Notes under the pieces: generated by a model
What the model was told of the DNA's origin: nothing
What the model saw: the letters and a program-made list of their open reading frames with translations, nothing else
Database searches by the model: none
From: Chloroflexota bacterium
GTDB lineage: Bacteria; Chloroflexota; Dormibacteria; Dormibacterales; Dormibacteraceae
Assembly (NCBI GenBank): GCA_005880175.1
Contig: VBJR01000217.1
Coordinates: 1 to 31,548, forward strand
Length of the DNA: 31,548 nt
Reading direction: 5' to 3'
Translations under genes and position numbers: made by a program
Shown here: positions 3,437 through 25,640 of the stretch, in pieces
Layout: each line of letters begins with the position of its first letter
How positions within the stretch are numbered: the stretch's first letter is position 1

Positions 3437-4591
3437 TTAGCTGCTGCTTCCAAGGAACAACCTCAGCAGGTCCTGGTCGCTGGTGTGCGACGCAGGTGGC
3501 GCCGGCGCCGGCGGGGTAGCCGGCACCGGCATGTTGGAACGGCTCGAGTTCGCGCTGGTCTGAGCGGCGGTCGCGCCGCCGGACGTCCCCTGCCGGGCGC
3601 AGCCGGCGTTGAGGCCGACGGTGCACGTGCCGAGGATCGCCTGGATGCGCACGAAGTGCCCGTTCGCGTCGGAGCCGGAGAACGCGCTCTCCGTCTCGAC
3701 CACCGCCGTCATCAGCGAGGGCACGGCCGGGTTCACGCCGTTCACGAGGCCCGTCGCCTCGCTCAGCACCGCGCGCAGCCTGGTCACGGTCGCGGGCGCC
3801 TCGTCCAGCGTCCGGGCCAGGTTGCCGGAGTTGCCGTCCAGCACGACGTCCAGCTCCTGGAGCGTGCTGGCGGTGTGGTCGATGCCGTCGCCGATCGAGC
3901 CGTTGACCTGGACCAGGCCGCTCAGCACCTGGTTCGTGTCCCGGATCTGGGCGTCGAGCGGCGCGTTCTGGAGGTCGCGGCTCAGCTGCTCCGACGCGAC
4001 CACCGTGCCCGCCAGGTCCTGGTCGCGCTGGCGCAGCGTCGCCGTCACCGCGGCCAGGTCGTCGGCCGCGGCGCTCAGCGACTGCAGCGTCGCGTTCACG
4101 TCCTGGCCGCGGCCGCTGCTGGCCGCCCCCAGCTCGACGATCAGCGTCTGCAGGCTCTGGCGGACGTCCGGCTGGAGCGCGTTCAGCACCTGGTCGAGGT
4201 CCGTCGTCACGTGGACCCGCGAGATCGGGATCGTGGCGCCGTCGGCGAGCTGGCCGTGGCGGCCGCCGTCGAGCTCGACGTAGCGCGGGCCGAGCAGCCC
4301 GTGCGGCCGGATCAGCGCCGACGCGTCGGAGTGCAGCAGGTTCGCGTACGTCCGGTCCACGGAGATGTCCACCAGCGCCCGGCCCTGGCGCAGCTCCAGC
4401 CCGTCCACCGAGCCGATCCGGATGCCGGCCAGCTCCACGCTCGCGTCCGGGTTCAGCTCGCCGAACGAGCCCGCCTCCAGCGTCACGTGCACGGTCTGCG
4501 ACCAGGGCAGCGACGGCGGGTGGAACAGCAGGACCAGCAGCGCCACCGCGGCGGCGGCCGCGGCCAGGCCGGTCACCCGGGCGCGGCTCAT
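3437..4591 (-). CDS. MCE family protein, sixth in the operon
   Basis: A 384-aa MCE (mammalian cell entry/MlaD) protein. It has one N-terminal membrane anchor (about residues 8-25), an MCE domain (about 33-115) with the motif IRPHGLLGPRYVEL, then a long Gln/Leu-rich helical region (about 140-300) predicted as coiled coil, and a tail with two cysteines (GTCTVGLNAGC) and Ala/Pro-rich low complexity. MCE proteins form hexameric rings or tubes that carry lipids across the envelope, fed or emptied by a YrbE/Mkl ABC core. The start is set by TGATG overlap with the previous MCE stop, so the longer open frame is not used. The MMPL gene follows after 13 bases. Confidence 0.92.
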   Translation of the reverse strand: MSRARVTGLAAAAAAVALLVLLFHPPSLPWSQTVHVTLEAGSFGELNPDASVELAGIRIGSVDGLELRQGRALVDISVDRTYANLLHSDASALIRPHGLLGPRYVELDGGRHGQLADGATIPISRVHVTTDLDQVLNALQPDVRQSLQTLIVELGAASSGRGQDVNATLQSLSAAADDLAAVTATLRQRDQDLAGTVVASEQLSRDLQNAPLDAQIRDTNQVLSGLVQVNGSIGDGIDHTASTLQELDVVLDGNSGNLARTLDEAPATVTRLRAVLSEATGLVNGVNPAVPSLMTAVVETESAFSGSDANGHFVRIQAILGTCTVGLNAGCARQGTSGGATAAQTSANSSRSNMPVPATPPAPAPPASHTSDQDLLRLFLGSSS

Positions 4592-6054
4592 CAGGGCAAA
4601 CCCAGGAGCGCGCCCACCGCGCTCGGCAGGGGCGCCGGCAGCTGTCCGGTCACGCCGCCCACCACCGACGTGCAGCCCGGGGAGGCGCTGGGCGACGGCG
4701 TGGGGGTAGGCGTGGGCGTCGGGCCCGGCACCGGCACGCACGGCGACGGCGTCGGGCACACGAGCTGCGGGAGCGGCGTCGGCAGCAGCGGGGGCAGGGA
4801 AGGCAGTGGCAGCGGCAGCACGGGCTGCCCGCTCGGGCACGGCGTCGGCTTCGGCGTGGGCTTGCCGGAGCCCGGCGCGCCCGTGGCCCCCGCCCCGCCC
4901 CCCGGCGACGAGGGCGGCGCGGCCGGCGGCGCGTGCGAGCCGGGCGGCGCCGCGGGCCCGCTCAGCGAGACGCCGCCCAGGCAGCCGGTCCCGGTGGCCG
5001 GATCGACTTTCGTGCTGGTCCGCTGGTCCACGCACGTGTCCAGCACGATGTACTGGCGCAGGAAGTTCCCGCCGGCGTCCCGCTGGGCGATCGCGCTGCC
5101 GATCTCGGGCAGGAGCTGGTTGAACGCGCCCTTCAGCGAGGCCTGGTTGTTGTGCAGGTACGGGTACGTGGTGGCCAGGTTGTCGTTGAGCCCGACGAGC
5201 AGTGGGTCGAGCGTGGTCACCGTGTCGTGCAGGTTGCCCTCGTTGCCGTTCAGCGTCTGGTCCACGTCGTGGCTCGTGGCGGCCAGGTGGACGAGCAGGT
5301 CGTCCAGGCTGCGGTCGTTCGCGCTCAGCGTGCCCGCCACGCTGGCCGTGTTCGCGACCAGGTCGCCGAGCTGCTGCCGGCTCACGGCCAGCCGCTGGCT
5401 GGTCACCGCGAGGTTGGCCGTGATCGAGCTCAGGTCGCCGGTGTGCGCGTTCAGGGTCCCCAGCCCGCCCTGCGACTCGCCGGCCAGGCCGGAGAGCTGG
5501 TCGAGGAGCAGGTTCAGCGTCTCGCCCCGACCCTCGACGCCGCCGCCCAGCTGCTGCACGAGCACCTGCGCCTGGCGCCGCGTCTCCGGGTCGAGCGTGG
5601 ACAGGAACTGGTCGAAGTCCACCGGCGTGACCGTCTCGGTGCTGGGGATGGTCGCCCCGTCGCCCAGCGGCTTCGTGCCGGCCGCCGGCGACAGCTCCAC
5701 GTACTTCTGGGCGAGCAGCGTCGAGTAGCGGATGGCCGCGATCGTGCCGGTGTGCAGCGGCGCGTAGCGGTGGTCGATGCGCATGGCCACGATGGCCTGC
5801 CGGCCGCTGCCCGTGACGCCGGTGACCTGGCCGATCGGGGTGCCGGCGACCTGGACGCCGGCGCCCTTGATCAGCCCGTTGGCGTCGGTGAACGTGGCGC
5901 GCAGCGTGTAGTCGCGGGTCGGAGGCAGGCCCAGGCTGACGTCGCCGGGCAGACCGAAGCTCGTGTCGATGCCGACGGCGAGCAGCACGACCGCGCCGAT
6001 CACGGCGAGCGTCAGCACGCCGGCCAGGAGCGGGTTGCCGCGGGTGAGCCTCAT
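4591..6054 (-). CDS. MCE family protein with long Pro/Thr-rich tail, fifth in the operon
   Basis: A 487-aa MCE protein, the longest of the six. N-terminal anchor about residues 9-28, MCE domain about 40-125 with IRYSTLLAQKYVEL, helical coiled-coil-like region to about 330, then a tail of about 110 residues rich in Pro, Ser, Gly and Thr, with the repeat PTPTPTPTPSPS near the end. Such tails are seen in some mycobacterial Mce proteins and may cross peptidoglycan; that role is inferred. The ATG overlaps the preceding stop (ATGA at 6054-6051). A GTG nine bases upstream is a less likely start. The stop overlaps the next MCE start by one base. Confidence 0.92.
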   Translation of the reverse strand: MRLTRGNPLLAGVLTLAVIGAVVLLAVGIDTSFGLPGDVSLGLPPTRDYTLRATFTDANGLIKGAGVQVAGTPIGQVTGVTGSGRQAIVAMRIDHRYAPLHTGTIAAIRYSTLLAQKYVELSPAAGTKPLGDGATIPSTETVTPVDFDQFLSTLDPETRRQAQVLVQQLGGGVEGRGETLNLLLDQLSGLAGESQGGLGTLNAHTGDLSSITANLAVTSQRLAVSRQQLGDLVANTASVAGTLSANDRSLDDLLVHLAATSHDVDQTLNGNEGNLHDTVTTLDPLLVGLNDNLATTYPYLHNNQASLKGAFNQLLPEIGSAIAQRDAGGNFLRQYIVLDTCVDQRTSTKVDPATGTGCLGGVSLSGPAAPPGSHAPPAAPPSSPGGGAGATGAPGSGKPTPKPTPCPSGQPVLPLPLPSLPPLLPTPLPQLVCPTPSPCVPVPGPTPTPTPTPSPSASPGCTSVVGGVTGQLPAPLPSAVGALLGLP

Positions 6055-7079
6055 CCGCTGCACCTCGCTGTGGGCGTCAGCGTTCCGTTCGTCGCCCCGA
6101 CCAGCTGCGGGTCCACGCGGAGCATGAATCCGTTGCCGTCCGTCGAGCCGGCGGGGTGCGAGTAGTCGGTGGCGCTGCGCATCTCGCCCAGCGTGTTGAA
6201 CAGGTCGTTGACGCAGGGATCGATCGTGCCGAACGTGGTGGTCGAGCTGGCCTCGAACTCCTGCAGCTGCTGGAGGAGCGCCGGCTGGTCCTTCAGCAGC
6301 TGGTTCAGCGACGCCTGGTGGCCGTCCAGCGCGGTGTTCAGGTTGCCCAGCGAGCTGTTGGCCGCGCTGAGCTCGTCCTGCAGGTGCTGCTGGTGGGCGG
6401 CCAGCGTGTCCAGCAGGGTGGCGCCGTTCGCGACGTCGCCGCGCAGCGACTTGTCCTCGCCCGAGACCTGGGACGCCACCCGGTCGAACTCGATCGCGAG
6501 CGCGTTCAGCTCCTGGTCCTGGTCGTCGAGGGCGCCGGCGGTCTGGGCCAGGTCGGACGAGACCTGGGGCAGGCGCTGCAGCACGTGGTTCACGTCGGGG
6601 CCGCGGTTCTGGAGCGCCACCGCGCCCTGCTGGTTCAGCGTCTGGAGCGCCTGCCGGGTCTGCGCGTCGAAGATGTCGGTGACCTGGTCGAGCGTCACCG
6701 GCGAGGCCGTGTCCTGGACGGGGATGGTGCCGCCGGACGCGATCGTGCCACCGGCGCCGGAGGGCGTCAGCTCCACGAACATGTTCCCGAGCAGGCCCTT
6801 GGGCCGCAGCGTCACGCGGGTGCCGTGGTGCAGCGGCGCGTACCTCTGGTCGAGCTGCATCGTGATCTGGGCGCCGGCCGGGCCGCCGTCGGGGGCCAGC
6901 CCGACCGCGCTGACGTGGCCGACCGGGACGCCGCCCATGACCACGTCGTTGCCGGGCACGACCTGGGCGGCGGACACGACGTACGCCGTCACCTCGTACG
7001 GCCGGGTGCGCTGGAAGATCGTGACGCCGGTCGCGGTGCCGGCCGCCAGGAGCAGGGTGAGGAACCCGAGCAGCTTCAT
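6051..7079 (-). CDS. MCE family protein, fourth in the operon
   Basis: A 342-aa MCE protein. The N-terminus is a membrane anchor (LLGFLTLLLAAGTATGVTIF, about residues 3-22). The MCE domain covers about 28-110 and contains GGVPVGHVSAV and LRPKGLLGNMFVEL. A long Gln/Leu-rich helical region (about 130-290) follows. It lacks a long disordered tail and ends with a single-Cys motif (TARCSG). Start and stop are both fixed by overlaps with neighbours: TGATG upstream and ATGA downstream. It is one ring-forming subunit of the predicted lipid channel. Differences between the six paralogues imply a hetero-oligomer, as is accepted for actinobacterial MCE systems. Confidence 0.92.
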   Translation of the reverse strand: MKLLGFLTLLLAAGTATGVTIFQRTRPYEVTAYVVSAAQVVPGNDVVMGGVPVGHVSAVGLAPDGGPAGAQITMQLDQRYAPLHHGTRVTLRPKGLLGNMFVELTPSGAGGTIASGGTIPVQDTASPVTLDQVTDIFDAQTRQALQTLNQQGAVALQNRGPDVNHVLQRLPQVSSDLAQTAGALDDQDQELNALAIEFDRVASQVSGEDKSLRGDVANGATLLDTLAAHQQHLQDELSAANSSLGNLNTALDGHQASLNQLLKDQPALLQQLQEFEASSTTTFGTIDPCVNDLFNTLGEMRSATDYSHPAGSTDGNGFMLRVDPQLVGATNGTLTPTARCSG

Positions 7080-8308
7080 CACAGCGGCAGCCCCAGGAGC
7101 ATCTGGACGGCGGAGGGGATCAGACCCTGCGCGGACGCCGGCGCGGGCACGCTGCCCGCGCCGGCGCCGGTTCCGGACGAAGCGGTCCCCCCACCCTGGC
7201 TGCTTCCCGCGAGCGGGTTGGGCAGCGAGGTCGGCAGCGCCGGCTGTCGCACGGCCGTGGCCGGGTCGACGATGCCGGTGATGCGGAACGCGTTGCCGTT
7301 GGAGTCCGACTGCGAGAACGCCGAGATCCACTCGGCCGCCAGGGTCACGGCGTCGGGCTGGCTGACCGCCAGCTGGTTGTTCGGGTAGTTGACCTGGGCC
7401 AGCAGCAGCTCCGGCAGCAGCCGGTCGATCGCCGGGTTCAGCGTCGAGACGAGCTGCCGGCCCGAGGAGATCGTGGCCGGCGCCTGGGCCAGCGACGCGC
7501 GGTCGGCCGGCGTCGTGTCGGCGAGGATCTGCTGCAGCGAGGCGAACAGCCTGTCGGCCTGCTGGATCGTCCCGGCGAGCTGCTGGTCGCGGTTGGCCAG
7601 CGCCGCCGTCGCCGTGTCGCCGCTGACGATCACGCGGCCGAGCGCGTCCTGCTCGTCCGCGAGCGCGGACAGGATGATCGCCAGGTCGGTGAGGATCCGG
7701 CCGATCTGCTGCTGGCGGGCGTCGGCGATCTGGGCCAGCGGGCGGAGGTTGGCGGCCGCCTGCTCGACCTGCGGGATGGCGGCGCTGATGTCGTCCTGGC
7801 GGCCGGTCACCGCGATGCCGAGCTGGCGCAGCGACTGCGAGATCGCCGCCCGGGTCTGGGGGTCGAGCTCGTTCAGCACCGTGTCCAGCTCGACGGCCTG
7901 GCCGGTCTGCTGGCGGGGCAGCTCGTAGCCGTCGGTCACGTACGCGGCGGTCGAGCCGGTGCGGCGGACCAGCTCCACGTACTTCTCGCCGATCGCGGTC
8001 TTGGGCCGCAGCAGCGCCCGGGTGTCCGACCGGAGCCGGACGGTGGGGTCGAGGACCATCGTGACGATCGCCCCGCCCTGGGGGTCGGGCGCGATCGCCG
8101 TCACCCGGCCCACGTGCACGCCGGCGACGTCCACGTCGGACTGCGTGACCAGGCCCTCGACGCCGGCGAAACTGGCCTCCAGGCGCCAGCCCTGGCGGAG
8201 GCCGGGGACCTCCAGGCCCATGCTGACGGCCAGGAAGCCGAGGCCGCCGACGCAGAGCAGCGCGAAGGCGCCGACCATGGCGAGGTTCGTGGCGGTGCGG
8301 CGTCTCAT
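7079..8308 (-). CDS. MCE family protein, third in the operon
   Basis: A 409-aa MCE protein with an N-terminal anchor (about residues 9-30), an MCE domain (about 37-118) containing VDVAGVHVGRVTAI and LRPKTAIGEKYVEL, a long helical region (about 135-330), and a Gly/Ser/Ala-rich tail from about 355 to 390 followed by a short hydrophobic end (IPSAVQMLLGLPL). A similar end, VGALLGLP, closes the fifth MCE protein, and FLLGRK lies near the end of the first, so a short hydrophobic C-terminal element may be shared. The ATG overlaps the preceding stop (ATGA) and its own stop overlaps the next start (TGATG), showing strong translational coupling. Confidence 0.92.
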   Translation of the reverse strand: MRRRTATNLAMVGAFALLCVGGLGFLAVSMGLEVPGLRQGWRLEASFAGVEGLVTQSDVDVAGVHVGRVTAIAPDPQGGAIVTMVLDPTVRLRSDTRALLRPKTAIGEKYVELVRRTGSTAAYVTDGYELPRQQTGQAVELDTVLNELDPQTRAAISQSLRQLGIAVTGRQDDISAAIPQVEQAAANLRPLAQIADARQQQIGRILTDLAIILSALADEQDALGRVIVSGDTATAALANRDQQLAGTIQQADRLFASLQQILADTTPADRASLAQAPATISSGRQLVSTLNPAIDRLLPELLLAQVNYPNNQLAVSQPDAVTLAAEWISAFSQSDSNGNAFRITGIVDPATAVRQPALPTSLPNPLAGSSQGGGTASSGTGAGAGSVPAPASAQGLIPSAVQMLLGLPL

Positions 8309-9333
8309 GGGATGCCCAGACCTCCGGTGCTGACCGACCCGCCACTCGCCACCACGTAGATGCGCCACATGCTGTCGCCCTGCGGGTCGGTGCCGCTCAT
8401 CACCGACGCCAGCCGGTTGAACACGTCCGAGATGGCCGGCGAGTCGGCGTTCAGGTCGCCGAAGATGACCTGGCCGTTGGCCAGGTAGTGGTTCGTGTTG
8501 TCGAGCAGCGCCGGCGCCTCCGCGACCGCCTGGTGCAGGCCCTGCGCGTTGCCGTTGGCCAGCGCCTGGTCGAGGATCGTGACGACCCTGTCCTCCTGCA
8601 CGACCACGCCCTGCAGGTCCGTCTCCCGCGACGCCAGCGTCCGCATGAGCTTGTCCCAGTCGGTGACGAGCTGGCGCAGCTGAGCGTGGTAGGCGGCCAG
8701 CGTGTCCAGCACCTTGCGCAGGTCCATCAGCAGCGCGTCCAGGTGGCCCGACTGGCTGGCCACCGCGTGCGCGATCGTCTCCAGCGACTGGGCCACGTCG
8801 CGCAGGTCCGCCGCGGACGCGTTGAGGTCCTGGCCGCGGCCCTGGACCGTCTCGCCCAGCTCGTTGATCGCCACGACCAGCCGGTCGCGCGTGCTCGCGT
8901 CGAGCACGTCCAGCACCTGGCTGACCTCGACCGGGATCAGCGTGTGCTGGAGGTCGATCCGGCCCCCGTCCGGCATCGGTCCCGACTGCGGGGTGCCCCG
9001 GTTCAGCTCGACGTACGTCTCGCCGAGCAGGTTCTTGGTCTTGACCATCGCCCGGGCGTCCTTGAACAGCGGCGCGTACTCGGGGTGCAGCTGCAGCCCC
9101 ACCTCGGCGCCGCCCTCGACCGGCCCCAGCGACTCCACCCGGCCGACCGGGAACCCGTCGATGGTCACCTCGTCGCCGGACACCAGCTCGGCGCCGTTCG
9201 CGAACGTCGCCAGCACCCGGTAGGACGGCCGGAGCAGGAACTCGCCGCCCATCTGGCTGCCCAGCACCGCCAGGGCGACCAGGCACACGGCCAGGTAGCC
9301 CAGGCAGACGGGCACGTTGGTGCGACTCCTCAC
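8305..9333 (-). CDS. MCE family protein, second in the operon
   Basis: A 342-aa MCE protein starting at GTG (GTGA overlap with the preceding stop). Anchor about residues 8-27 (CLGYLAVCLVALAVLG), MCE domain about 35-125 with TIDGFPVGRVESL and VKTKNLLGETYVEL, then a helical, heptad-like region to about 300 and a short non-repetitive end (ASGGSVSTGGLGIP). It has no Pro-rich tail. Its composition and codon use match the neighbours. It is likely a subunit of the same MCE hetero-oligomer. Confidence 0.92.
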   Translation of the reverse strand: MRSRTNVPVCLGYLAVCLVALAVLGSQMGGEFLLRPSYRVLATFANGAELVSGDEVTIDGFPVGRVESLGPVEGGAEVGLQLHPEYAPLFKDARAMVKTKNLLGETYVELNRGTPQSGPMPDGGRIDLQHTLIPVEVSQVLDVLDASTRDRLVVAINELGETVQGRGQDLNASAADLRDVAQSLETIAHAVASQSGHLDALLMDLRKVLDTLAAYHAQLRQLVTDWDKLMRTLASRETDLQGVVVQEDRVVTILDQALANGNAQGLHQAVAEAPALLDNTNHYLANGQVIFGDLNADSPAISDVFNRLASVMSGTDPQGDSMWRIYVVASGGSVSTGGLGIP

Positions 9334-10382
9334 TGCGGCTTCCTCCCGAGCAGGAAGTCGATCGCCGAGTTGCTGCCCAGATTCGGGCAGAGGCTGACCG
9401 TCGAGCAGCCGACGATCGGCGTGATGCGGGTCGAGAAGCCGTTCGCGTCGAGGCCGCCGAACACGGACGGGCCCTCGGCGATGGCGGCGTTGAGCTGGCC
9501 CAGGTGCGGCATCAGCACGTCGCTGTCCGGGCCCAGGTCGGCCATGATCAGGTCCGCCAGGTGGACGGTGACCGGGAGCTGGTGCGCGACGTCGGCCAGG
9601 TTGCCGCCGGTCCCGTTCAGCGCGTTGGCGGTGCGCGTCAGGGCGGCGTTGGTCTCGGCCAGCGCCTGCTGGAGCTGGACCTCCTGGCCGGCCAGGTTCT
9701 GGAGCAGCGACTCCAGGTTGGTGATCAGGTCGCCCAGCTGCTGGCGGCGGTCGCTCCGGGCCAGCTCCTGGGTGACGCTGTCCAGGTTCGCGATCGCGTC
9801 CTTCAGCTCCGCGTCGCGATTGGCCAGCGTCGCGGAGATGCCGCGCAGGTCCGAGATGTCCTGCCGGCCGGCGACGAGCGCGCCGTTGAGCTCGTCGCCC
9901 CGGCCCGCCACGCCGCCGCCCAGCTCGACGACGAGCGTCTGCAGCTTGGCCCGCGTCGGCTCGTCGAACGTGTTGATCACGTCCTGCAGGTCGGTGGACT
10001 GCGTCACCTGCGTCGCCGGCAGCGTGGCGCCGGAGGGCAGGGTTTCGCCCGCCTGCCCGGGGTCGAGCGCCAGGTAGCGCTCGCCGAGCAGGCTCTTGGG
10101 CCGGATGCTGACGGTGGCGTCGCGGTGCAGCGGGGCGTGCTCCGCGTCCACCGTGACCCTGACGAGCGCGGCGCCCGAGCCCAGCGAGATGCTCTCGACC
10201 CGGCCGGCCAGCGCCCCCGCGATCATCAGGTCGCTGCCCGGCGACAGCCCGGCGGCGTCCTGGACCGGCACCGTCACCTCGTACGCGCCCACGCCGGGCA
10301 GCAGGCGGGTGATGCCGATGGCGGCGGCGACCACGGCGACGAAGGCCAGGCCCAGCTCGATCCGGCGCAGCGCCCCTCGCAT
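9330..10382 (-). CDS. MCE family protein, first in the operon
   Basis: A 350-aa MCE protein. Anchor about residues 10-29 (LGLAFVAVVAAAIGITRLL), MCE domain about 33-112 with LMIAGALAGRVESI and the well-conserved IRPKSLLGERYLAL, helical region about 130-300, and a tail with two cysteines (GCSTVSLCPN) that resembles the Cys pair of the sixth MCE protein. It starts by TGATG overlap with the ABC ATPase gene. That position, directly after the permease and ATPase genes, corresponds to MceA of actinobacterial operons; the letter assignment is inference from order only. Confidence 0.92.
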   Translation of the reverse strand: MRGALRRIELGLAFVAVVAAAIGITRLLPGVGAYEVTVPVQDAAGLSPGSDLMIAGALAGRVESISLGSGAALVRVTVDAEHAPLHRDATVSIRPKSLLGERYLALDPGQAGETLPSGATLPATQVTQSTDLQDVINTFDEPTRAKLQTLVVELGGGVAGRGDELNGALVAGRQDISDLRGISATLANRDAELKDAIANLDSVTQELARSDRRQQLGDLITNLESLLQNLAGQEVQLQQALAETNAALTRTANALNGTGGNLADVAHQLPVTVHLADLIMADLGPDSDVLMPHLGQLNAAIAEGPSVFGGLDANGFSTRITPIVGCSTVSLCPNLGSNSAIDFLLGRKPQ

Positions 10383-11182
10383 CAGTCCATCGCCAGCGGC
10401 CCGGTGACCGCCCCCCTGATGAACTGCCGGGTGAACGGGTGCGTGGACTCGCGCAGCTGCTCTTTCGGGCCCTGCTCGACCACGCGGCCGCCGTGCAGCA
10501 GGATCACGTTGTCGGCGACGTCGAACACGGCCTTGGTGTCGTGGCTGATGACCACGGCCGTGGACCCGTACCGGCGCTGGATCTCCCGGATCAGCTCGCA
10601 CAGCAGCGCCGTGCGGACGGGGTCGAGCCCGGAGTCGGGCTCGTCGAACAGCAGGATGCGCGGCTCCAGGACGAGCGCCCTGGCGAAGCCGGCGCGCTTG
10701 CGCATGCCGCCCGACAGCTCGTTGGGCATCTTGCGCTCGGCGCCGGTCAGGCCCACCTCGGCCAGCCGCTGCATCACGATGTCGCGGATCTCGCGCTCCG
10801 ACTTCCGCGTGTGCTGGCGGAGCGGGAAGGCGACGTTGTCGAACAGGTTCATCGAGCTGAACAGGGCGCCGTCCTGGAACAGCATCCCCATGTGCCGGCG
10901 CAGCTCGAGCAGCTCGTCCTCCGAGAGCCTGGGCACGCTCCGGCCCTCGACGATGACGTGGCCGCGGTCCGGCTTGAGCAGGCCGACGAAATGGCGGAGC
11001 AGGACGGACTTGCCGGTCCCGGACGGGCCCATGATCACGGTGATCTGGCTCCGGGGCACCTGGCAGTCCACGCCGGCCAGCACGCGGTGGCCGGAGAACG
11101 ACTTCTCGACGCCGATGCATTCGATGACGACGTCGAGGGAGGCGGGATCGGCGCGATTGGGCATGGGATAGGTGCTGTGCAT
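10382..11182 (-). CDS. ABC transporter ATP-binding protein of the MCE system (Mkl/MlaF-type)
   Basis: A 266-aa ATPase. Walker A is GPSGTGKS (about residues 52-59), the Q-loop region is LFQDGALFSSM, the signature is LSGGM, Walker B is ILLFDEPDSGLD, and the switch His is in VVISHD. The FQDGALF and NELSGGMRKR stretches are typical of the MlaF/Mkl branch that drives MCE lipid transport. In mycobacteria mkl is unlinked from mce operons; here it lies inside, between the permeases and the MCE genes, as in Mla-like systems. The TGATG overlap with the permease stop sets the ATG at 11182; a second ATG at 11164 would shorten the N-terminus by six residues. Confidence 0.95.
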   Translation of the reverse strand: MHSTYPMPNRADPASLDVVIECIGVEKSFSGHRVLAGVDCQVPRSQITVIMGPSGTGKSVLLRHFVGLLKPDRGHVIVEGRSVPRLSEDELLELRRHMGMLFQDGALFSSMNLFDNVAFPLRQHTRKSEREIRDIVMQRLAEVGLTGAERKMPNELSGGMRKRAGFARALVLEPRILLFDEPDSGLDPVRTALLCELIREIQRRYGSTAVVISHDTKAVFDVADNVILLHGGRVVEQGPKEQLRESTHPFTRQFIRGAVTGPLAMD

Positions 11183-12003
11183 CACGTGGGTATGGGGAGG
11201 TTGGGGTTGGTGCCCCAGAAGGCCTGCGTCAGAACCGCGTTGAGCACCACGGTCAGCACCAGGCTCAGGGCCATCGTCTTGGCGACGGCGCGGCCGATGC
11301 CGACGGGGCCGCCTGTCACGTGGTAGCCGTAGTACACGGCCACGCAGATGATCGTGAAGGCGAAGACGACCGCTTTGATCAGCGAGAAGAGCAGGTCCAG
11401 CAGGTTCGTGAACCTCCAGAAGTAGCTGAAGTAGACGCCGTCCGAGATGACGCCGACCTGGTAGTGCTGGACGACCCAGCTGGCCAGGAAGCTGCTCGCG
11501 AGCGCGAGCACGTACATCAGCGGCATCACCAGCAGGGCCGCGAGCATGCGGGTGGAGACCAGGAAGCGGACCGAGTTCACGCCCATCGTCTCGAGGGCGT
11601 CGATCTCCTCGTTGATCCGCATCGTCCCCAGCTCGGCGACGAGGCCGCAGCCGACCTTGGCCCCGACCGCGAATCCGAAGAACAGCGGCGTGATCTCGCG
11701 CAGGTCGCAGAGCGCGTTGAAGACGCCGGCCAACGACTCCGCGCCGCCCAGCTGGTGCAGCGAGTAGTACGCCTCGACGGAGCACTCGGAGCCGCTGAAG
11801 TACGTGATGACGAGCGCGACTGGCGTCGAGCCGAGCGCGAGGAATGCCGCGTACCACCAGACCTCGCCGGCGTACCGGAGCGCTCGCGGGATGCCGGCCA
11901 GCGCCCGGGCCGAGAACGCGATGACCTCGCCCAGGACGTCGAACGGCTGGAGCCCGGGCGCCCAGAACGGGCCGCGATCGGGGGCGACAGGCGCGGTGCT
12001 CAT
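11182..12003 (-). CDS. MlaE/YrbE family permease, second copy
   Basis: A 273-aa integral membrane protein of the MlaE (YrbE) family, with about five or six hydrophobic segments spread from residue 50 to the end. The family hallmark is visible around residues 120-150 (GCGLVAELGTMRINEEIDALETMGVN), the cytoplasmic coupling region that contacts the ATPase. It pairs with the other permease encoded upstream to form the membrane core. ATG start; stop overlaps the ATPase start by one base. The 256-bp gap before it breaks an otherwise gapless operon. Confidence 0.93.
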   Translation of the reverse strand: MSTAPVAPDRGPFWAPGLQPFDVLGEVIAFSARALAGIPRALRYAGEVWWYAAFLALGSTPVALVITYFSGSECSVEAYYSLHQLGGAESLAGVFNALCDLREITPLFFGFAVGAKVGCGLVAELGTMRINEEIDALETMGVNSVRFLVSTRMLAALLVMPLMYVLALASSFLASWVVQHYQVGVISDGVYFSYFWRFTNLLDLLFSLIKAVVFAFTIICVAVYYGYHVTGGPVGIGRAVAKTMALSLVLTVVLNAVLTQAFWGTNPNLPIPT

Positions 12004-12259
12004 CCGAGCGCCTTGACCTTCTGACCGCCCTGGTCAGCGGACACCCGGGACGCCGAAAGCAAGGGCTCTGCCCGAGTGTGTGAGTCCGTCTTCCCTGGTC
12101 CGCACGGCCGATCCTCAGACGCGGAGCGATGCGCCGCAGCCCGGGGTCCCCACGAAATCGCGGTGGTGGGGTGCGGATTTCGTGGGGTGGGAGGCGCCCC
12201 CAACGTCCCGGACAAGCGGGGGGGTTCCGGAAGGGGGGGCCTGCCCCCTCTCGCATCGT
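12004..12259. other. Structured intergenic gap inside the mce operon
   Basis: No convincing coding sequence. It contains a perfect 12-bp inverted repeat (12148-12159 and 12176-12187, half-site CCCCACGAAATC, 16-base spacer), two runs of seven G on the plus strand (12218-12224 and 12233-12239) flanking the palindrome TTCCGGAA, and a G5/C5 hairpin (12235-12239 with 12244-12248) about 11 bases past the stop of the first permease. On the mRNA strand the last is a strong stem that could attenuate transcription. Function is unproven. Confidence 0.6.
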
Positions 12260-13039
12260 TCATCGCAGCGTCAGCTGGTCGTGGAACAGGGCCAGCACCG
12301 TCGGGGTGAACAGGTACTCGAACGCCAGCAGGCCGACGAACGACCAGATGACCGAGGAGTGCACGGCCTTCGCCACCCCCTCCGCCCCGCCCCGGGCCCC
12401 GATGCCGCGGCCGATGCAGATCGCCGCGACGATCGCCCCGAAGACGATGCACTTGACCTCGCCGCTGATCACGTCGACGACCGTGCCCTGGGTGAAGAAG
12501 CTGGCCAGGAAGCCGCCCGAGTTCACGCCGACCACGACCACCCCGACCAGGTACGAGGCGACCATGGTGAACACGATCATCGGGAAGTTGTAGAGGGCGG
12601 TCATCAGCATCAGCGCGAGCGCCCGGGGCACGACGATGAACAGGACGTTGCTGAGGCCCATCACGCTCAGGGCCTCGAGCTCGGAGCGGACCTGGCGGGC
12701 GCCGAGGTCGGCCACGATCGCCGTGCCGCTGACGGCGGCGATCATCAGGCCGGTGGCGACGGGCGAGAACTCGCGGATGTTGGACATGACCGTGAACCCG
12801 CCCAGCCGGTACTCGGCGCTGGCCGCTCGGAAGAAGTGGCCGGCCTCCAGGGAGACGATCGCGCCGAATCCCATGCCGGTCAGCAGCAGGGGCACGAAGT
12901 TGGCGGTGAGGATGAACCGGCACTGCTCCAGGAGCTCGTGCCAGTAGAACGGGCGACGCATCGAGCCGCGGAGCGCGGCCCCGAAGAGGAGTGTCAGCTC
13001 GCCCAGATCCGTGACCCAGCGCCAGGTGGCCGCGATCAC
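12260..13039 (-). CDS. MlaE/YrbE family permease, first copy
   Basis: A 259-aa MlaE-family permease, the first gene of the operon. The conserved segment TAIVADLGARQVRSELEALS (about residues 110-135) is the family coupling region, and several hydrophobic helices follow to the C-terminus. I chose GTG at 13039 because a GGGAGAG Shine-Dalgarno sequence lies five bases upstream; in-frame GTG codons at 13078 and 13072 would add 13 or 11 residues (PVRLPNSDGREV) without a clear ribosome site. It is followed by an unusual 256-bp gap before the second permease. It faces the ArsR-type regulator gene across a 285-bp divergent region. Confidence 0.9.
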   Translation of the reverse strand: MIAATWRWVTDLGELTLLFGAALRGSMRRPFYWHELLEQCRFILTANFVPLLLTGMGFGAIVSLEAGHFFRAASAEYRLGGFTVMSNIREFSPVATGLMIAAVSGTAIVADLGARQVRSELEALSVMGLSNVLFIVVPRALALMLMTALYNFPMIVFTMVASYLVGVVVVGVNSGGFLASFFTQGTVVDVISGEVKCIVFGAIVAAICIGRGIGARGGAEGVAKAVHSSVIWSFVGLLAFEYLFTPTVLALFHDQLTLR

Positions 13040-13129
13040 GACTTCTCTCCCATCACTGTTCGGGAGACGCACGGGCACGCCGGATTGTTCGGTAGGCCCG
13101 AGAAAATCGCCGGCTGAGTGGGATGGGTT

Positions 13130-14343: not shown

Positions 14344-14537
14344 TCAACGGCGATCTGGACCAGATCCTGGCGGCGCGGAAGGCCGCCGAGTGGCTGCGCG
14401 ACGCGGAACGGGGTCGACTGGCGGCGGCGGCCCGGCCCCGGCGCTCGATCCGGTTCCGGCTGGGCTCGATCACGGTCCTGATCGAGCACCAGCCTCACCG
14501 GCCGTCGGTCAGCCTTCCAGGCTCGCCTCCAGCGTGA
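14340..14537 (+). CDS. Small hypothetical protein coupled to the ArsR-type regulator
   Basis: A 65-aa protein starting at GTG 14340, which overlaps the regulator stop by four bases (GTGA). A strong purine-rich ribosome site (GAGGGGAGGAGG, about 14323-14334) lies just upstream. The sequence begins INGDLDQILAARKAAEWLRDAERGRLAAAARP, probably one amphipathic helix, followed by a short strand-like part (SIRFRLGSITVLIEHQP). The coding frame keeps the GC-rich third positions of its neighbours up to about 14500. No family is recognised. Its last 29 bases run antisense into the end of the OsmC-like gene. The tight coupling suggests a partner of the regulator, which is inference. Confidence 0.6.
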   Translation: MINGDLDQILAARKAAEWLRDAERGRLAAAARPRRSIRFRLGSITVLIEHQPHRPSVSLPGSPPA

Positions 14538-14940
14538 TCTCGGGCACTCCGGCCAGCGCCTTCGAGACCGGGCAGTTGGCCTTGGCCCCCTCCGCCGCCT
14601 CGCGGAACGCGTCCTCGGACAGGCCGGGGACGCGGCCCCGCACCGTCAGGTGGATGGCCGTGATGCCGGCTCCCGGCTGGAACGCGACGCGGGCCGACGT
14701 GTCCAGGCGCTCGGGTGCATGGCCCGCGTTGCCCAGGCCGAACGACAGCGCCATCGCGAAGCAGCCCGCGTGGGCGGCCGCGATCAGCTCCTCGGGGCTG
14801 GTTCCCGATTCGCGCGACTCCGCGCGCGCCCGCCAGGTCAGCGTCTGCTCGGAAAAGGCCCCGCTGGCGACGCGGACGCTGCCGCTGCCGCCCATCAGTT
14901 CGCCGTTCCAGGTCGCGGACGCGCTGCTCTCTACTGCCAA
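14509..14940 (-). CDS. OsmC/Ohr family protein
   Basis: A 143-aa OsmC-like protein. The two reactive cysteines of the family are present: C60 in AAAHAGCFAMALS and C123 in ANCPVSKALAG. OsmC/Ohr enzymes reduce organic or fatty-acid hydroperoxides using this Cys pair, usually with lipoyl or thiol donors. The length is normal for the family. I chose TTG at 14940 because GGAGG lies nine bases upstream and the protein then begins just before the first expected strand; an ATG at 14982 would add 14 atypical residues. The DUF2236 gene lies 54 bases upstream on the same strand, so they are probably co-transcribed. A role in lipid peroxide defence beside the lipid-import operon is plausible but unproven. 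Confidence 0.88.
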   Translation of the reverse strand: MAVESSASATWNGELMGGSGSVRVASGAFSEQTLTWRARAESRESGTSPEELIAAAHAGCFAMALSFGLGNAGHAPERLDTSARVAFQPGAGITAIHLTVRGRVPGLSEDAFREAAEGAKANCPVSKALAGVPEITLEASLEG

Positions 14941-14994
14941 GGCTTCGATCCTCCGGTGTGCGGGCGCAGGGCGAGCGCCCATCGACCGGCAAGG

Positions 14995-15813
14995 CTACTC
15001 GGCGGCGCGGGCCCTCGCCGTCCGCGCCGGGGGCACCTGGCGGAACCGCCGCGGCAGCACCCGGAGCGTTCGGGGCAATGCGCCCCGCACCGCCCCGAAG
15101 CCCATCTGCTCCAGCCGGCCCCAGGGCAGCTCGTAGTCCAGCCGCAGGCTGGCCGGCAGCAGGCCGGCCGTGATCGCCTCGAGCGGCCGGAACACGGGCG
15201 GCGGCACGCGCTGCACGTTCGGCCTGAGCACGGCCCGGGCGAGCTCGCGGGCGCGAGCGTCCACCATCAGCTCGGGGCCCGTCAGCATCTGCGCCATGTA
15301 GGCCTCGAACTCGGACAGGCTGCCGGGGTACCGGGAGTTGGCGAGGCCGAGCAGGCCGCCGATCAGCTTCGCCTCCTGGTAGTACGCATCCTGGTCCACG
15401 GCGGAGACCGGGCCGACGAACTCCGTGTACGTCACCAGCGCGCTGTCGATCAGCGTCGCGTGCACCCAGAGCAGCAGGCGCGGGTCGGTGGCGCTGTACC
15501 CGTTGCCGCGGATGCGCTGGTGGACGGCGTTGATCTGCTGGGCGGCGCCGAGCGCCTCCGCGCGGGTGCCGAACGTGAGCGCGAGCGTCAGCTCCAGCGT
15601 GCGCAGGAGCCGGTCGAGCGGCCGGCGCCGGAAGTCGCTGTGCTCGGCGACGCCGGCGGCCACCCCGGGGTGGGCCAGCTGCATGAGGAGCGCCCGCCCT
15701 CCTCCGAGCAGCAGCGCAGGCTCCTGGTTGATCCGCCAGGTGATCGAATCGGGACGAAACAGCGACTGCGGCAACGGGACCCCCGTCCTCCAACATAGTC
15801 CGTCCGGCGACAT
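14995..15813 (-). CDS. DUF2236 / MpaB-type oxygenase domain protein
   Basis: A 272-aa protein of the DUF2236 family, related to the MpaB oxygenase and the latex-clearing protein Lcp. Recognisable blocks are SITWRINQEPALLLGGGRALLMQ (N-terminal), QLAHPGVAAGVAEHSDFRR with two conserved His, and WVHATLIDSALVTYTEFVGP with another His in the middle. In Lcp-like relatives such His residues bind heme; many bacterial members have no proven function. No signal peptide or clear membrane helix is visible. The length is typical. It is divergent, by 51 bases, from the TGA-containing redoxin gene. Confidence 0.85.
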   Translation of the reverse strand: MSPDGLCWRTGVPLPQSLFRPDSITWRINQEPALLLGGGRALLMQLAHPGVAAGVAEHSDFRRRPLDRLLRTLELTLALTFGTRAEALGAAQQINAVHQRIRGNGYSATDPRLLLWVHATLIDSALVTYTEFVGPVSAVDQDAYYQEAKLIGGLLGLANSRYPGSLSEFEAYMAQMLTGPELMVDARARELARAVLRPNVQRVPPPVFRPLEAITAGLLPASLRLDYELPWGRLEQMGFGAVRGALPRTLRVLPRRFRQVPPARTARARAAE

Positions 15814-15864: not shown

Positions 15865-16911
15865 ATGATCCTGAGCGAGCCGAGGGTCCGCCGCGACGAC
15901 TTCAGCGCCCGCACGGGCTGGCGCTTCGAGCCCCAGGGCGCCTGCCGGGGCGACCTGTGCGTGCCGCTGCCCGAGCCGCCCGGCGAGTGGCTGGACGCCG
16001 CCACGCTGGGCGAGCGGCTGGGCATGCCGCTGGTGAGCGAGGAGGCGGCGGGGGTGTGGTGCCTCGGGCCCGAGTCGATGGGCCGGGTCCTGCAGACCGC
16101 CGAGGCGCCGGACCTGCGGCTGCCGGACTGGAAGGGGAAGCCGTTCGCGCTGTCGTCGCTGCGCGGCAGCAAGGTGCTGCTGCTGGCCTGGGCCTCCTGG
16201 TGAGGCTGCCGGTTCGACCTGCCCGTGTGGCAGGAGCTGCGTGAGGAGCTCCACCCGAAGGGGCTGGAGGTCGTCACCGTCGCGCTCGACCTGAAGGGGG
16301 TCGAGACCGCGGGCCGCTGGATCGAGGCGGCGGCGCCGGCGCACCCGTCGCTGATCGATCAGGCGCACGTGGTGGACGAGCTGCTGGGCGTGGTGAACGT
16401 CCCGAACGGCGTGTGGATCGATGAGCGGGGGGTGATCGTGCGGCCGGCGGAGCCGGCGTTCCCGAAGCGGGCAGCGTTCCTGGAGCGGCCGCTGCCGCCG
16501 GACCCGGACCCGTACCTGGCCGAGGTGCGGCAGGAGGCGCGGCGGATCCGGACGCAGCCGGACCTGTACACGGCGGCGCTGCGGGACTGGGTCGAGCTGG
16601 GCCCGGCTTCGCGCTACGCGCTGACGCCGGAGGAGGTCCTGCGGCGCTCGGGTGAGCGAGGCCGGGACCGGAGCGAGGCGGCCGCCCACTTCGAGCTGGC
16701 ACAGCACCTGTGGCGCGCGGGCCAGGAGCAGGAGGCGGTGCCGCACTTCCGCGCGGCGAGGCGCCTGCAGCCGGCGAACTGGACGTACAAGCGCCAGGCG
16801 TGGGTGCTGGCCAACCGCTTCCAGGCGCCGACCGAGCTGCTCGAGGGCGACTGGCTCTCGGACGTCCGCGAGATCGGCGCGGAGAACTACTACCCGAAGT
16901 TGGACATGTAG
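15865..16911 (+). CDS. Thioredoxin-fold redoxin with in-frame TGA at the active site (candidate selenoprotein)
   Basis: Read through the TGA at 16201-16203, this is a 348-aa protein. Residues 1-80 form an N-terminal domain with cysteines C27, C32 and C66. Residues about 81-205 are a TlpA/AhpC-like thioredoxin fold: DLRLPDWKGKPFALSSLRG, strand VLLLAWASW, then residue 113 (the TGA), then GCRFDLPVWQEL, and a cis-Pro loop NVPNGVWID. The C-terminal part holds a TPR-like helical repeat (AAAHFELAQHLWRAGQEQEAVPHFRAARRLQP). The TGA falls exactly where the first catalytic Cys follows WASW in this fold, giving U-G-C. A hairpin with a G-containing loop starts 14 bases later. The frame stays protein-like and GC3-rich for another 235 codons. 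Start ATG 15865 has TACCTT seven bases upstream. If not selenocysteine, it is a Cys-to-stop mutation or sequencing error. Confidence 0.8.
16201..16234 (+). promoter_or_regulatory. Candidate bacterial SECIS element after the in-frame TGA
   Basis: CCTGCC (16218-16223) and GGCAGG (16229-16234) form a perfect 6-bp stem with the 5-base loop CGTGT, whose second base is G. The loop begins 20 bases after the TGA. Bacterial SECIS elements are known to place a small loop, with G in one of its first two positions, roughly 16-37 bases after the UGA. A second, mutually exclusive hairpin (16233-16252, 8-base loop starting with G) also falls in range. In such GC-rich DNA hairpins are common, so this alone is weak evidence. 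Confidence 0.5.
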
Positions 16912-18224: not shown

Positions 18225-19758
18225 CTACTCGACCGACAGGATGAAGGGGTAGTGCTCCTGGCCCCCGGACTGGACCTCGACCTCGAGGTCAGGGAAGGTG
18301 CCGCGGATGGAATCGGACAGGCGCTCGGCCTGGGAGTCCGTCGCCTGCTGGCCCCGGTAGATCGTGACGAGCTCGTAGTCCGCCGCGCCGATGCCGCTCA
18401 GCGCCGCCCCGACGACGGCGTTGTACTCCTTGCCGGCGTGCTCCAGGCGGTCGTTGATCACCGCGATCACGTCGCCCTTGTGCACGTTCAGCCCGTCGGA
18501 CCGCGTGTCGCGCACCGCGTGCGTGACCTCGATCGTCTGCACGTGCGCCGCCGCCTCCCGCATCGCGGCCGCGTTCTCCTCGAGCGACCGCTCGGGGTGG
18601 AACGCCACCACGGCAGCGATGCCCTGCGGCATCGTGTGGGTCGGCAGCACCTCGAGTGACTTCCCGGTCAGGTCCCCGACCTGCGACGCGGCCAGCACCA
18701 CGTTCTTGTTGTTGGGCAGCAGCAGCACGTGCTGGTAGGGCAGGCGCTCGACCGCCAGCAGCATGTCCTGCGTGCTGGGGTTCATCGTCTGGCCCCCCTC
18801 CACGATCTCGTCCACGCCCAGCCCCCGGAAGATCTCCACCAGTCCGGGCCCGGCCACCACCGCCACCAGCCCGACGCCGTTGGACCGCAGCTCCGCCGGC
18901 TCGGCCGGCTCCGGGGCCTCCGGCGCGGCGCCCTCGTCGCGGATCCGGCGGTGCTGGATGGACATGTCGCCCACGTTCAGGCGGTCGAGCCGGCCGTACC
19001 GGGCCGCGAGCGTGATGACGCGGGACGGGTCGTCGGTGTGGACGTGGACCTTGACCAGCTCCGCGTCGCCGACGACCAGCACCGAGTTGCCGAGCGACTC
19101 GATCTCGTCCCGGATGCCCTCCACGTCGAGGTCCTCGCCCTCGATCAGGAACTCGGTGCAGTAGCCCCAGCCCTCCTCGGGCAGGTCCAGCGTGGCCTGC
19201 GCCGCGGGCCGGGCCGGGCCCTGCTTCGACAGCTCGTCCTCGACCTCCTCGACCGAGCGGAGCATGCCCTCGAGCATGATCTGGAGCCCGTAGCCGCCGG
19301 CGTCCACGACGCCCGCGTCGCGCAGGATCTTGAGCTGGCTCGGCGTGCGCTCGACCGCCGACCGGGCGCCCGCCGCCGGTCCCCTCGGTGGGCTTGCTGA
19401 CCGCGCGGTACGCGGCGTTGGCCGCCTCCTCGAACGCCTCCGCCAGCTCGACCGGGCTCAGCTGGGCCTTGTCCTGGACCGCGCTGGCGAACCCCCGGAA
19501 GATCTGCGACAGGATCACGCCCGAGTTGCCGCGAGCGCCCATCAGGCTGCCGTGCGCGGCGATCCGGGCGATCTTGCTGACCTCGGTCGCCGGCGACTCG
19601 CGGATGTCCTCGACCGCCGATTGGAGCGTCAGCAGCATGTTCGTCCCGGTGTCGCCGTCCGGCACCGGAAAGACGTTCAGGCGGTTGATCTCCTCCTGGT
19701 GCGCGCCCAGCCACGCCAGGCTGCCCAGCAAAGACTGCTTCAGGAGCTGGCCGTCCAC
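18225..19758 (-). pseudogene. FakA-like fatty acid kinase (DhaL/YloV family), reading frame disrupted
   Basis: The N-terminal part (GTG at 19758) has the DhaL Mg-ATP motifs NVFPVPDGDTGTNM and GSLMGARGNSGVILSQ and runs to SKPTEGT near 19381. The continuation, SAVERTPSQLKILRDAGVVDAGG onward, is in another frame from about 19368 down to the TAG at 18225. In the family, roughly 30-35 residues separate these two blocks; here they nearly abut, so about 100 bases (two modulo three) appear to be missing at a very GC-rich point (19365-19380). The C-terminal half holds the middle and DegV-like domains (HVHTDDPSRVI, LLLPNNKNVVLAA, TMPQGIAAVVAF). FakA phosphorylates FakB-bound fatty acid. Asp23 lies 19 bases upstream, DegV directly downstream. 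It is either a real pseudogene or an assembly deletion; the rest of the sequence is not decayed, which favours a recent event or an error. Confidence 0.85.
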
Positions 19759-23722: not shown

Positions 23723-24787
23723 GTGGTCTGGGAGGCGGTCCCCAACTTCTCGGACGGCACCGATCCGGCGCTGCTGGACCGGCTCGGGACCGGCCCGGCC
23801 GTGCTCGACGCGCACGCCGACGCGGACCACGACCGCTGCGTGGTCACGATGGTCGAGGCGCGGCTCGACCGGCTCGCGGCCGCGGTGTTCCGGCGGGTGG
23901 CGCTGGCCGTCGAGCGGATCGACCTCCGCGCCCACTCCGGCGTGCACCCGCGGGTCGGCGCCGCCGACGTGGTGCCGCTGGTGCCGCTGGCCGGCGCGCC
24001 GATGGACCGGACGGTGGCCGCCGCCCGCGGCCTCGGCGAGCGCATCTGGCGGGAGCTGCGAGTGCCCGTCTTCTTCTACGCGGAGGCGGCTGACGGCCGC
24101 CGGCTGGCCGACATCCGGGCCGGCCGGGTCGCGCCCGACCTGGGGGGCGCCGCCCACCCCACCGCCGGGGCCGTCTGCGTGGGCGCCCGGCGCCCGCTCG
24201 TCGCCTACAACGTGGTGTTCGCGGGCCTGCCGCTGGCCGCCGGCCGCCAGGTGGCGGCCGCCATGCGGGAGCTGCCCGGCGTCCAGGCGCTGGCGTTCGT
24301 GCTGCCGGGCGGCCGGACGCAGGTCAGCATGAACCTGACCCGGCCGGACGAGACGGCGGTGCCGGACGCGTACGCCCGCGCCTGCGAGCTGGCCGGCTCG
24401 CGGGGCGCGCCAGAGCTGGTCGGGCTGTGCCCGGCGGCGTCCGCCGGCCCCGGCTGCGACGGCGGCCTGCTGGAGGCACGGATCGCGGGGCTGGTGGGCC
24501 GGAGGGGCGCGGCGGTCGCCAGGGGCGAGCTGGCCCGGCGGCTGGCCGCCGAGGGACGCTTCCTGTGCGACCTGGCGACGGGCCCGGAGACGGTGCTGGA
24601 GGGCGCGGAGCGGGCCGCCGCGCTGCGTGGGCTCCTGCGCGGGGCCGGCCTGGCCACGCCGGACCTGGAGGCGCTGCTGTACGCGGCGGTCCAGGGCCTT
24701 CGCGGCGCCGTGCCAGCCACGACGCAGGCGCGGTTCAGGGGCCGCGTCCAGGTGCTCGATCGCTGGCTCGCGCGCGGTGACCTATAG
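23723..24787 (+). CDS. ftcD: Glutamate formimidoyltransferase
   Basis: A 354-aa protein. The first 300 residues form the two formiminotransferase subdomains: VWEAVPNFSDG at the N-terminus, RIDLRAHSGVHPRVGAADVVPLVPL, and VAYNVVFAGLPLAAGRQVAAAMRE. The enzyme transfers the formimino group of formiminoglutamate to tetrahydrofolate, the next step after HutI. The full cyclodeaminase domain is absent; only about 50 C-terminal residues follow. GTG start at 23723, four bases after the hutI stop. The end carries the -10-like TATAGT that may start the next gene. Confidence 0.92.
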   Translation: MVWEAVPNFSDGTDPALLDRLGTGPAVLDAHADADHDRCVVTMVEARLDRLAAAVFRRVALAVERIDLRAHSGVHPRVGAADVVPLVPLAGAPMDRTVAAARGLGERIWRELRVPVFFYAEAADGRRLADIRAGRVAPDLGGAAHPTAGAVCVGARRPLVAYNVVFAGLPLAAGRQVAAAMRELPGVQALAFVLPGGRTQVSMNLTRPDETAVPDAYARACELAGSRGAPELVGLCPAASAGPGCDGGLLEARIAGLVGRRGAAVARGELARRLAAEGRFLCDLATGPETVLEGAERAAALRGLLRGAGLATPDLEALLYAAVQGLRGAVPATTQARFRGRVQVLDRWLARGDL

Positions 24788-24788
24788 T
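24783..24788 (+). promoter_or_regulatory. Possible leaderless promoter -10 box
   Basis: TATAGT lies at the very end of ftcD, six bases before the GTG of the fusion-protein gene. Transcription from it would begin at the start codon. No good -35 is visible, so the gene may instead depend on read-through from hutI-ftcD. Confidence 0.4.
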
Positions 24789-24794
24789 GGATTC

Positions 24795-25640
24795 GTGCCC
24801 CGTACGGTGGAGCTGGACGAGTTCACCGGTAAGGCCAGCATCCTCATCGATGCCGTGGCGGCCGGCGACGAGTCCGTGGTCGTGGTGAGGGGTGGAGCGC
24901 CGATCGCCGTGCTCGCCCCCCTCGGCGCCCCGGAGTCCCAGGCCGTCCTGGCCGACCTCCCGCGCTGGGAGGAGTGGGTCCACGAGGTCCGCGAGTCGTT
25001 CGCGGAGGCGGCCGGCCGGGCGCTCGCGCCGCAGGTGCCGCTGCCCGACCCGCCGCTCCTGGACAAGACGCTGCTCGGGTTCGACCCGGCCGCCGGCGTG
25101 ATCGGGTCCGACGCCGGTCGCGAGTACCTGACCCTCCAGCTGGAGCGCCTGAGCATGCCGGTCCGGGACGAGGAGCTGCTCAGCGCCGTGTACGCGGCGG
25201 TCCTGCGCCTGTGCGAGGACAAGGAGCAGGTCTACGAACCGGACCTGCGGGTGCTCGCCCAGGAGGTGATCGCGGAGGCGCCCCAGCGGCTGCGGCTCCT
25301 CGCCGTCACGGTGACGTCCAGCACCGGGCTGCCCGCCACCGCCGAGGTGACGCTCGAGCTGGGCCAGGGGCCGGCCATGCGCCGCGAGCACGGCGACGGC
25401 CCACTGGACGCCGCGTTCAAGGCCATCCAGCGCCTCACGCAGCTGGAGCCGGTCGTCGAGAACTTCTCCGTGGTCGCGGCCACGCCCGGCCGCGACGCCA
25501 TGGCCGAGGCGGTGATCGGGTTGGTGCTCGACGGCCGCCGGGCGGTCGGCTCGGGCGCGTCCACGAACGCGATCGAGGCCGGCATCCACGCGTACGTGAA
25601 CGCCCTCAACTTCCTGATCGAGGCGCGCATGCCCGCATGA
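24795..25640 (+). CDS. Phd/YefM-like N-terminus fused to LeuA regulatory (dimerisation) domain, no catalytic domain
   Basis: A 281-aa protein from GTG 24795. Residues 1-45 match the Phd/YefM antitoxin fold pattern: VELDEFTGKASILIDAVAAG, then ESVVVVRGGAPIAVLAPLG. Residues 46-105 are a linker. Residues 106-155 (GREYLTLQLERLSMPVRDEELL, then EDKEQVYEPDLRVLAQEVI) resemble the helical subdomain that follows the barrel of alpha-isopropylmalate synthase. Residues 165-278 match its C-terminal leucine-binding domain: HGDGPLDAAFKAIQRLTQL, VVAATPGRDAMAEAVIGL, and GSGASTNAIEAGIHAYVNAL. The TIM barrel with its HxH metal site is wholly absent. The stop overlaps the next ATG (ATGA). A ligand-sensing DNA-binding protein or an enzyme-regulating subunit are both possible; a leucine-like ligand is inferred from homology only. 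Confidence 0.8.
   Translation: MPRTVELDEFTGKASILIDAVAAGDESVVVVRGGAPIAVLAPLGAPESQAVLADLPRWEEWVHEVRESFAEAAGRALAPQVPLPDPPLLDKTLLGFDPAAGVIGSDAGREYLTLQLERLSMPVRDEELLSAVYAAVLRLCEDKEQVYEPDLRVLAQEVIAEAPQRLRLLAVTVTSSTGLPATAEVTLELGQGPAMRREHGDGPLDAAFKAIQRLTQLEPVVENFSVVAATPGRDAMAEAVIGLVLDGRRAVGSGASTNAIEAGIHAYVNALNFLIEARMPA

Follow-up and report, generated by a model that had tools for sequence, protein, structure and literature searches.

A candidate selenoprotein gene of the WAxxUGC redoxin family, with a bacterial SECIS-type hairpin, in a Chloroflexota contig

The window analysed here is the whole of a 31,548-nucleotide stretch from a Chloroflexota bacterium of the class Dormibacteria (contig VBJR01000217.1, assembly GCA_005880175.1). 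Its forward strand carries a redoxin gene of the WAxxUGC family (NCBIfam NF041054), interrupted by one in-frame TGA codon that is very probably read as selenocysteine (Sec). A hairpin of the kind known as a bacterial selenocysteine insertion sequence (SECIS) lies behind this codon. The features of the gene are as follows.

15865..16911, + strand: WAxxUGC (NF041054) redoxin coding sequence, 348 residues with putative Sec113, stop codon TAG; full-length match to NF041054
15865..16098, + strand: N-terminal domain, residues 1-78; predicted local distance difference test (pLDDT) 89-96 in the model
15943..15945 and 15958..15960, + strand: Cys27 and Cys32 of the N-terminal domain; invariant across 48 aligned proteins
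16099..16443, + strand: redoxin / ResA-like thioredoxin-fold domain, residues 79-193
16201..16203, + strand: TGA, putative Sec113, at the site of the first catalytic Cys; TGA/TGC/TGT = 68/17/3 in 88 matches
16207..16209, + strand: Cys115, second redox residue of U-G-C; invariant in the 48 aligned proteins
16218..16234, + strand: bacterial SECIS-type hairpin, 6 bp, loop CGTGT; pairing conserved in TGA rows
16402..16404, + strand: Pro180, in NVP; invariant in the 48 aligned proteins
16510..16812, + strand: C-terminal helical part resembling TPR (residues 216-316), containing the family motif WTYKRQAW; helices in the model

The frame runs from an ATG at 15865 to a TAG at 16909-16911 and gives 348 residues when read through. 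Its sole internal stop is the TGA at codon 113, where the codons TGA-GGC-TGC follow WASW to give the motif WASW-U-GCRFDLPVW. The two sides of the TGA are halves of one redoxin protein. This agrees with the original prediction, made from the sequence before any homologue was consulted, which described one open frame split by a single TGA, the same flanking motifs and a later cis-Pro loop. Pro180 is presumably the cis-Pro of the thioredoxin fold, a fold in which this position is cis. The Pfam models AhpC-TSA and Redoxin match above their cut-offs within residues 80-196. The predicted structure of the read-through protein (pLDDT 94.2) includes a ResA-like domain, whose long helix at residues 114-132 begins, in the model, at the U-G-C site. 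Cys115 lines up with the second Cys of CxxC, given a one-residue gap. A hydrophobic N-terminal anchor was not seen on inspection by eye.

The full-length protein, with the TGA read as Cys, scores 526 bits against NF041054 (cut-off 300) and spans positions 1-354 of the 354 in the profile. This equivalog family is called WAxxUGC_long and carries the name ‘ResA-like WAxxUGC motif-containing protein’; its motif, with either an in-frame TGA or a Cys codon, is present in the window gene. We saw no defining difference between the two, which share the WASW-U-GC motif, length and domains. The architecture, which had been considered unusual, is therefore ordinary for this family. Its description as an N-terminal Cys domain plus a TPR-like part stands insofar as Cys27 and Cys32 are invariant, and helices are modelled in the C-terminal part, where W306-R310 and W313 are also invariant across the 48 proteins. 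The TPR assignment itself is not supported by Pfam, whose matches near residues 260-307 are below cut-off (TPR_2, 21.7 bits against 27). The best relatives of the protein, in a search of 84,980 genomes, each from a different species, are about 62% identical, so the window gene is a divergent branch of NF041054.

The relatives used below are the best 80 of 204 loci found in these genomes through six exact peptide patterns. All 88 matches that cover the Sec column have TGA, TGC or TGT there (88/88), and the internal TGA is therefore beyond chance. The predicted placement of the TGA at the first catalytic Cys is thus upheld by the homologues. We also compared protein records, taking the best 120 of 3440 found (7998 were scored). 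Of these 120, 78 have Cys at the column, one has Trp and 41 are fragments that begin behind it. These fragments are the most identical of the 120 (77.7-98% over the approximately 66% of the query that they cover). They are gene calls of about 228 residues that start at about residue 120, and several are labelled ‘hypothetical protein’. Such a start is the expected result when a gene finder cuts a TGA selenoprotein gene, although TAA or TAG would look alike in protein records. The Trp is recorded in P0068, on a contig of 1015 bases, and probably comes from a gene finder working under code 4.

Some relatives vary the motif. Two WAxxUGC genes (L089:400-1461 and L090:1414-2475) have U-S-C instead of U-G-C, with the Ser codon AGC after the TGA; the former scores 312 bits against NF041054. 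A metagenome-assembled genome (MAG) of Thermomicrobiales has a shorter second TGA-bearing redoxin (L010:6433-7218) with the motif W-U-R-C, 3.5 kb from its WAxxUGC gene. The TGA of this paralogue is followed, at the spacing seen in the WAxxUGC gene, by a perfect hairpin, GCTGCC-CGGGT-GGCAGC. NF041054 is still its best match, at 142.6 bits against the cut-off of 300, and it is possibly a member of an unnamed sister selenoprotein family.

The hairpin of the window gene, CCTGCC-CGTGT-GGCAGG, starts 14 bases past the TGA, and its loop 20 bases past it. The folding energy is -9.3 kcal/mol for the hairpin alone and -14.9 kcal/mol for the 45 bases after the TGA. A 2026 review (PMC13188914) gives rules for bacterial SECIS elements: a loop of 3-9, a stem of 4-16 bp, a spacing of 16-37 nt, a G within the first two loop positions and a minimum free energy of at most -7.5. 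All of these hold for the window hairpin (loop 5, CGTGT; stem 6; spacing 20; -9.3 kcal/mol), in keeping with the spacing and loop that the original prediction had reported.

Conservation of the hairpin was assessed in gapless alignments, which omit a single TGA match of L019, located on its minus strand. All six pairs occur at the same place in 67 of the 68 TGA rows, the window included. When the rows were synonymously recoded, with the same peptides and with codons drawn from the same genes, only 28.3 ± 3.7 TGA rows had six pairs (maximum 41 in 500 draws). By contrast, six pairs were found in 2/20 Cys rows, where recoding predicts 1.7; ten of these 20 rows are Frankia and hence not independent. 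In a larger set, 78 of 79 TGA rows have the hairpin. The paired cells amount to 99.7% in TGA rows, with changes on both sides in two pairs, and to 65.7% in Cys rows. None of 500 shuffles reached the covariation score of the TGA rows. Three of the six pairs are invariable, and are partly fixed by the peptide L-P-x-W-Q. Judged from these aligned codons, the hairpin is under codon-level constraint behind the TGA.

The loop distinguishes the two forms as well. A G at loop position 2 occurs in 68/68 TGA rows and 2/20 Cys rows. In all 68 TGA rows the loop encodes Val or Gly, a count that is perhaps somewhat inflated given that one of the six search patterns, FDLPVWQE, contains this Val. The 20 Cys rows have Leu (15), Ile (3), Val (1) or Gly (1) at this residue. 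The looser rule that accepts a G at loop position 1 or 2 fails to separate the forms (Sec 79/79, Cys 15/20), but only two of the 20 Cys rows (L026 and L034) pass when six pairs are also required. Folding energy by itself is a weak argument. The mean Z values of the TGA rows in three stretches were -0.92, -0.54 and -0.43; TGA and Cys rows differ in two stretches (p = 1.4e-4 and 2.3e-4), whereas the widest shows no difference (p = 0.19). The window taken singly does not stand out in this test.

We searched for the Sec machinery in 49 genomes, which represent 50 of the 80 loci, including all 15 Cys loci (14 genomes); the other 30 loci all have TGA. A selB gene is above cut-off in 33 of the 35 genomes with the TGA form and in none of the 14 with the Cys form (Fisher p = 1.8e-10, although these are kin genomes and not independent draws). 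A tRNA-Sec above 60 bits, a split that is our own choice, is present in 30/35 and 0/14, respectively. The Rfam cut-off of 47 is passed by 37 of the 49 genomes, including four Cys genomes at 47.8-49.2 bits whose matches are probably tRNA-Ser look-alikes. For selA the counts are 30/35 and 4/14. In one genome (G007), selB, tRNA-Sec and selA are all below threshold.

The four Cys-form genomes with selA are Frankia (L048, L050, L055 and L061), out of five from this genus whose Cys-type WAxxUGC genes stand in tandem. Their selA-like gene scores 331-333 bits, above the TIGR00474 cut-off. They have no selB above cut-off and no tRNA-Sec above 50 bits. Their selA-like gene is either a SelA relative with another job or a relic.

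For the organism of the window, the evidence on machinery comes from its kin. The closest named match of the riboflavin synthase in the window is a Candidatus Dormibacteraeota bacterium protein (79% identity). The ribBA gene is 81% identical to those of two genomes, the nearest of 400 from the phylum of a MAG titled Thermomicrobiales (G002). The class of these two comprises 110 genomes, of which 79, both of them included, have selA above cut-off. Six genomes of the class have a WAxxUGC-type gene interrupted by one TGA, and selA is above cut-off in all six. Given that selA is also found in 73 of the 104 others, this 6/6 is only mild support for Sec machinery.

We considered three other explanations of the TGA. 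The one that survives best, though very unlikely, is that the locus is a pseudogene or encodes two proteins, with translation stopping at the TGA and a 228-residue downstream piece starting anew. Gene finders did call only the downstream piece in 41 of the 120 listed homologues. However, the split would fall inside the redoxin domain, invariant residues flank position 113 on both sides, and the frame has no further stop. Moreover, synonymous sites behind the TGA are constrained and the TGA form tracks selB.

A sequencing or assembly error, or a recent point mutation, that turned TGC or TGT into TGA in a Cys-type gene is less probable still. Errors may exist in the window, as a split YloV-like gene suggests. 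This gene, of the YloV/DAK2 type, lies at 18225-19758 on the minus strand with Dak2 in one frame and the C-terminal part in another, and the split is probably a frame break caused by error. Against an error at codon 113, TGA recurs at this column in 68 of the 88 related matches, which come from many assemblies. Truncation at this very point is also seen in the 41 closest of the 120 listed protein relatives, and the hairpin accompanies TGA rather than Cys. The column codons, fragment gene calls and synonymous-site constraint thus led us to reject both error and pseudogene.

Reassignment of TGA, e.g., to Trp, has a negligible probability: P0068 has Trp at the column, but the column is otherwise TGA or Cys, and TGA ends 14 of the 22 window frames backed by family or homologue matches (one being the Dak2 part of the split gene, which ends at the apparent frame break), so the window uses the standard code and a changed one is rejected, as the original prediction had argued from ordinary TGA stops. 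The WAxxUGC frame itself ends with TAG.

The window gene therefore very probably encodes a WAxxUGC (NF041054) selenoprotein in which UGA codon 113 is read as Sec. The proposed selenoprotein redoxin is supported as a selenoprotein but not as a novelty, as NCBIfam already names the family, to which the gene adds a member. During decoding, SelB and Sec-tRNA would be recruited by the hairpin, which begins 14 bases past the UGA, and reading of the UGA as Sec would create a U-G-C active site in a thioredoxin-fold oxidoreductase. In the most likely chemistry, the Sec selenolate would attack a peroxide or an oxidised substrate, Cys115 would resolve the selenenic acid or mixed bond, and a thioredoxin-like donor would re-reduce the Sec113/Cys115 pair. 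Cys27 and Cys32, both invariant in the N-terminal domain, may form an internal relay. The link to peroxiredoxins consists of the AhpC-TSA domain match, and peroxide reduction is a predicted activity.

The Cys forms are nested among the Sec forms in the WAxxUGC tree. A carefully built tree with 98 rows (78 Sec and 20 Cys), which omits the long-branched L010 paralogue, has five Sec/Cys changes; bootstrap trees have 4-5, and three are forced by the starred branches. A quick tree of 99 rows, which includes the L019 match, has four. The root state is Sec when the tree is rooted on a TGA-bearing clade of 41-45% identity, and the direction of change depends on this TGA-bearing outgroup. On balance, we favour a history in which the family contained Sec at its root and changed from Sec to Cys several times, in lineages whose searched genomes lack selB (0/14), with the hairpin dictating protein sequence while Sec lasts. 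A gene of Patulibacter minatonensis (L034:10001-11050; 494.8 bits to NF041054) has TGC at the Sec column, yet its six pairs and CGTGT loop are intact, and the genome has no selB above cut-off. Under the same favoured history, this hairpin would be a fossil of lost Sec.

According to a 2006 survey (PMC1794560), Sec-to-Cys events were found in no more than four families, chiefly formate dehydrogenase and selenophosphate synthetase, and some cases retain remnant SECIS-like structures. The 2026 review and this survey describe the bacterial change as rare and largely confined to FdhA and SelD. If our reading is true, the WAxxUGC family is a further, well-sampled case.

Other genes in the window provide limited context. 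Upstream of the selenoprotein gene and divergent from it, at 14509-15813, are an OsmC-like gene (68 bits) and a gene with no NCBIfam match. OsmC proteins often reduce organic hydroperoxides, and this neighbour may hint at a stress shared with the selenoprotein gene. Lipid transport genes of the MCE/MlaD, MlaE and HAE3/MMPL types lie in a row at 997-13078 on the minus strand. The frame at 24627-25640 encodes a LeuA dimerisation domain (92 bits), but the synthase domain expected ahead of it is missing from the frame, which possibly reflects a second frame break or a gene fusion. In related organisms, records of truncated WAxxUGC proteins and riboflavin synthases lie on contigs of equal size (P0003/P0312, 18,033 bases; P0007/P0308, 235,900 bases), and the linkage of WAxxUGC and rib genes may thus be kept.

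We clustered the open reading frames within 6 kb of 81 loci (15 Cys and 66 Sec, the window included). No operon partner of the Sec forms was indicated among these loci; the most shared cluster, present at 14/81, resembles a generic short-chain dehydrogenase by eye. One upstream gene family overlaps the WAxxUGC start by 4 bases at 8/15 Cys loci (L021, L026, L046, L048, L050, L055, L061 and L062; e.g., L048:9561-10004) but at 0/66 Sec loci. Three of these eight genes were scanned, and have SnoaL_2 and limonene-1,2-epoxide hydrolase domains. Acquisition of such a SnoaL/epoxide-hydrolase-like partner together with the Cys form could be a clue to the substrate.

The locus is a clean example of a gene that annotation pipelines cut at the Sec codon. 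Its family, with Sec and Cys forms that match the presence and absence of selB, is a test case for the benefit of selenium in a thioredoxin-fold enzyme, and likewise for the constraint that an RNA signal inside a coding region places on a protein. The Sec-to-Cys history and the hold of the hairpin on the protein sequence are points worth following.

Selenoproteins of this kind were probably in print by 2008. A study of the Global Ocean Sampling set (PMC2398784) lists ‘Prx-like (UGC-containing)’ selenoproteins, with 46, 15 and 855 in their table row, the first seemingly the Sec sequences, and describes them as commoner in nonmarine samples. The 2026 review tabulates a ‘UGC-containing TlpA disulfide reductase family protein’. 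As described there, these proteins share with the window protein a pfam00578 or TlpA-like (cd02966) fold and a UGC motif, and by motif and fold description they are probably the same kind as NF041054. We did not meet the name ‘WAxxUGC’ in the literature, where the kind was found only as ‘UGC-containing’, nor an experimental study of the family, in searches that were not aimed at function alone and left subscription journals mostly uncovered. No relative was found in viral contigs. Among solved structures, none stood out as sharing the three-part architecture, in lists full of redoxin-domain and TPR proteins that barely tested the N-terminal part. The protein is distinct from ResA proper (NF002854, 47.8 bits against a cut-off of 170). 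The ResA, TlpA and DsbE (CcmG) thiol-disulfide oxidoreductases have C-x-x-C where the window protein has U-G-C and, unlike them, the window protein adds an N-terminal C-x4-C domain and a C-terminal helical part.
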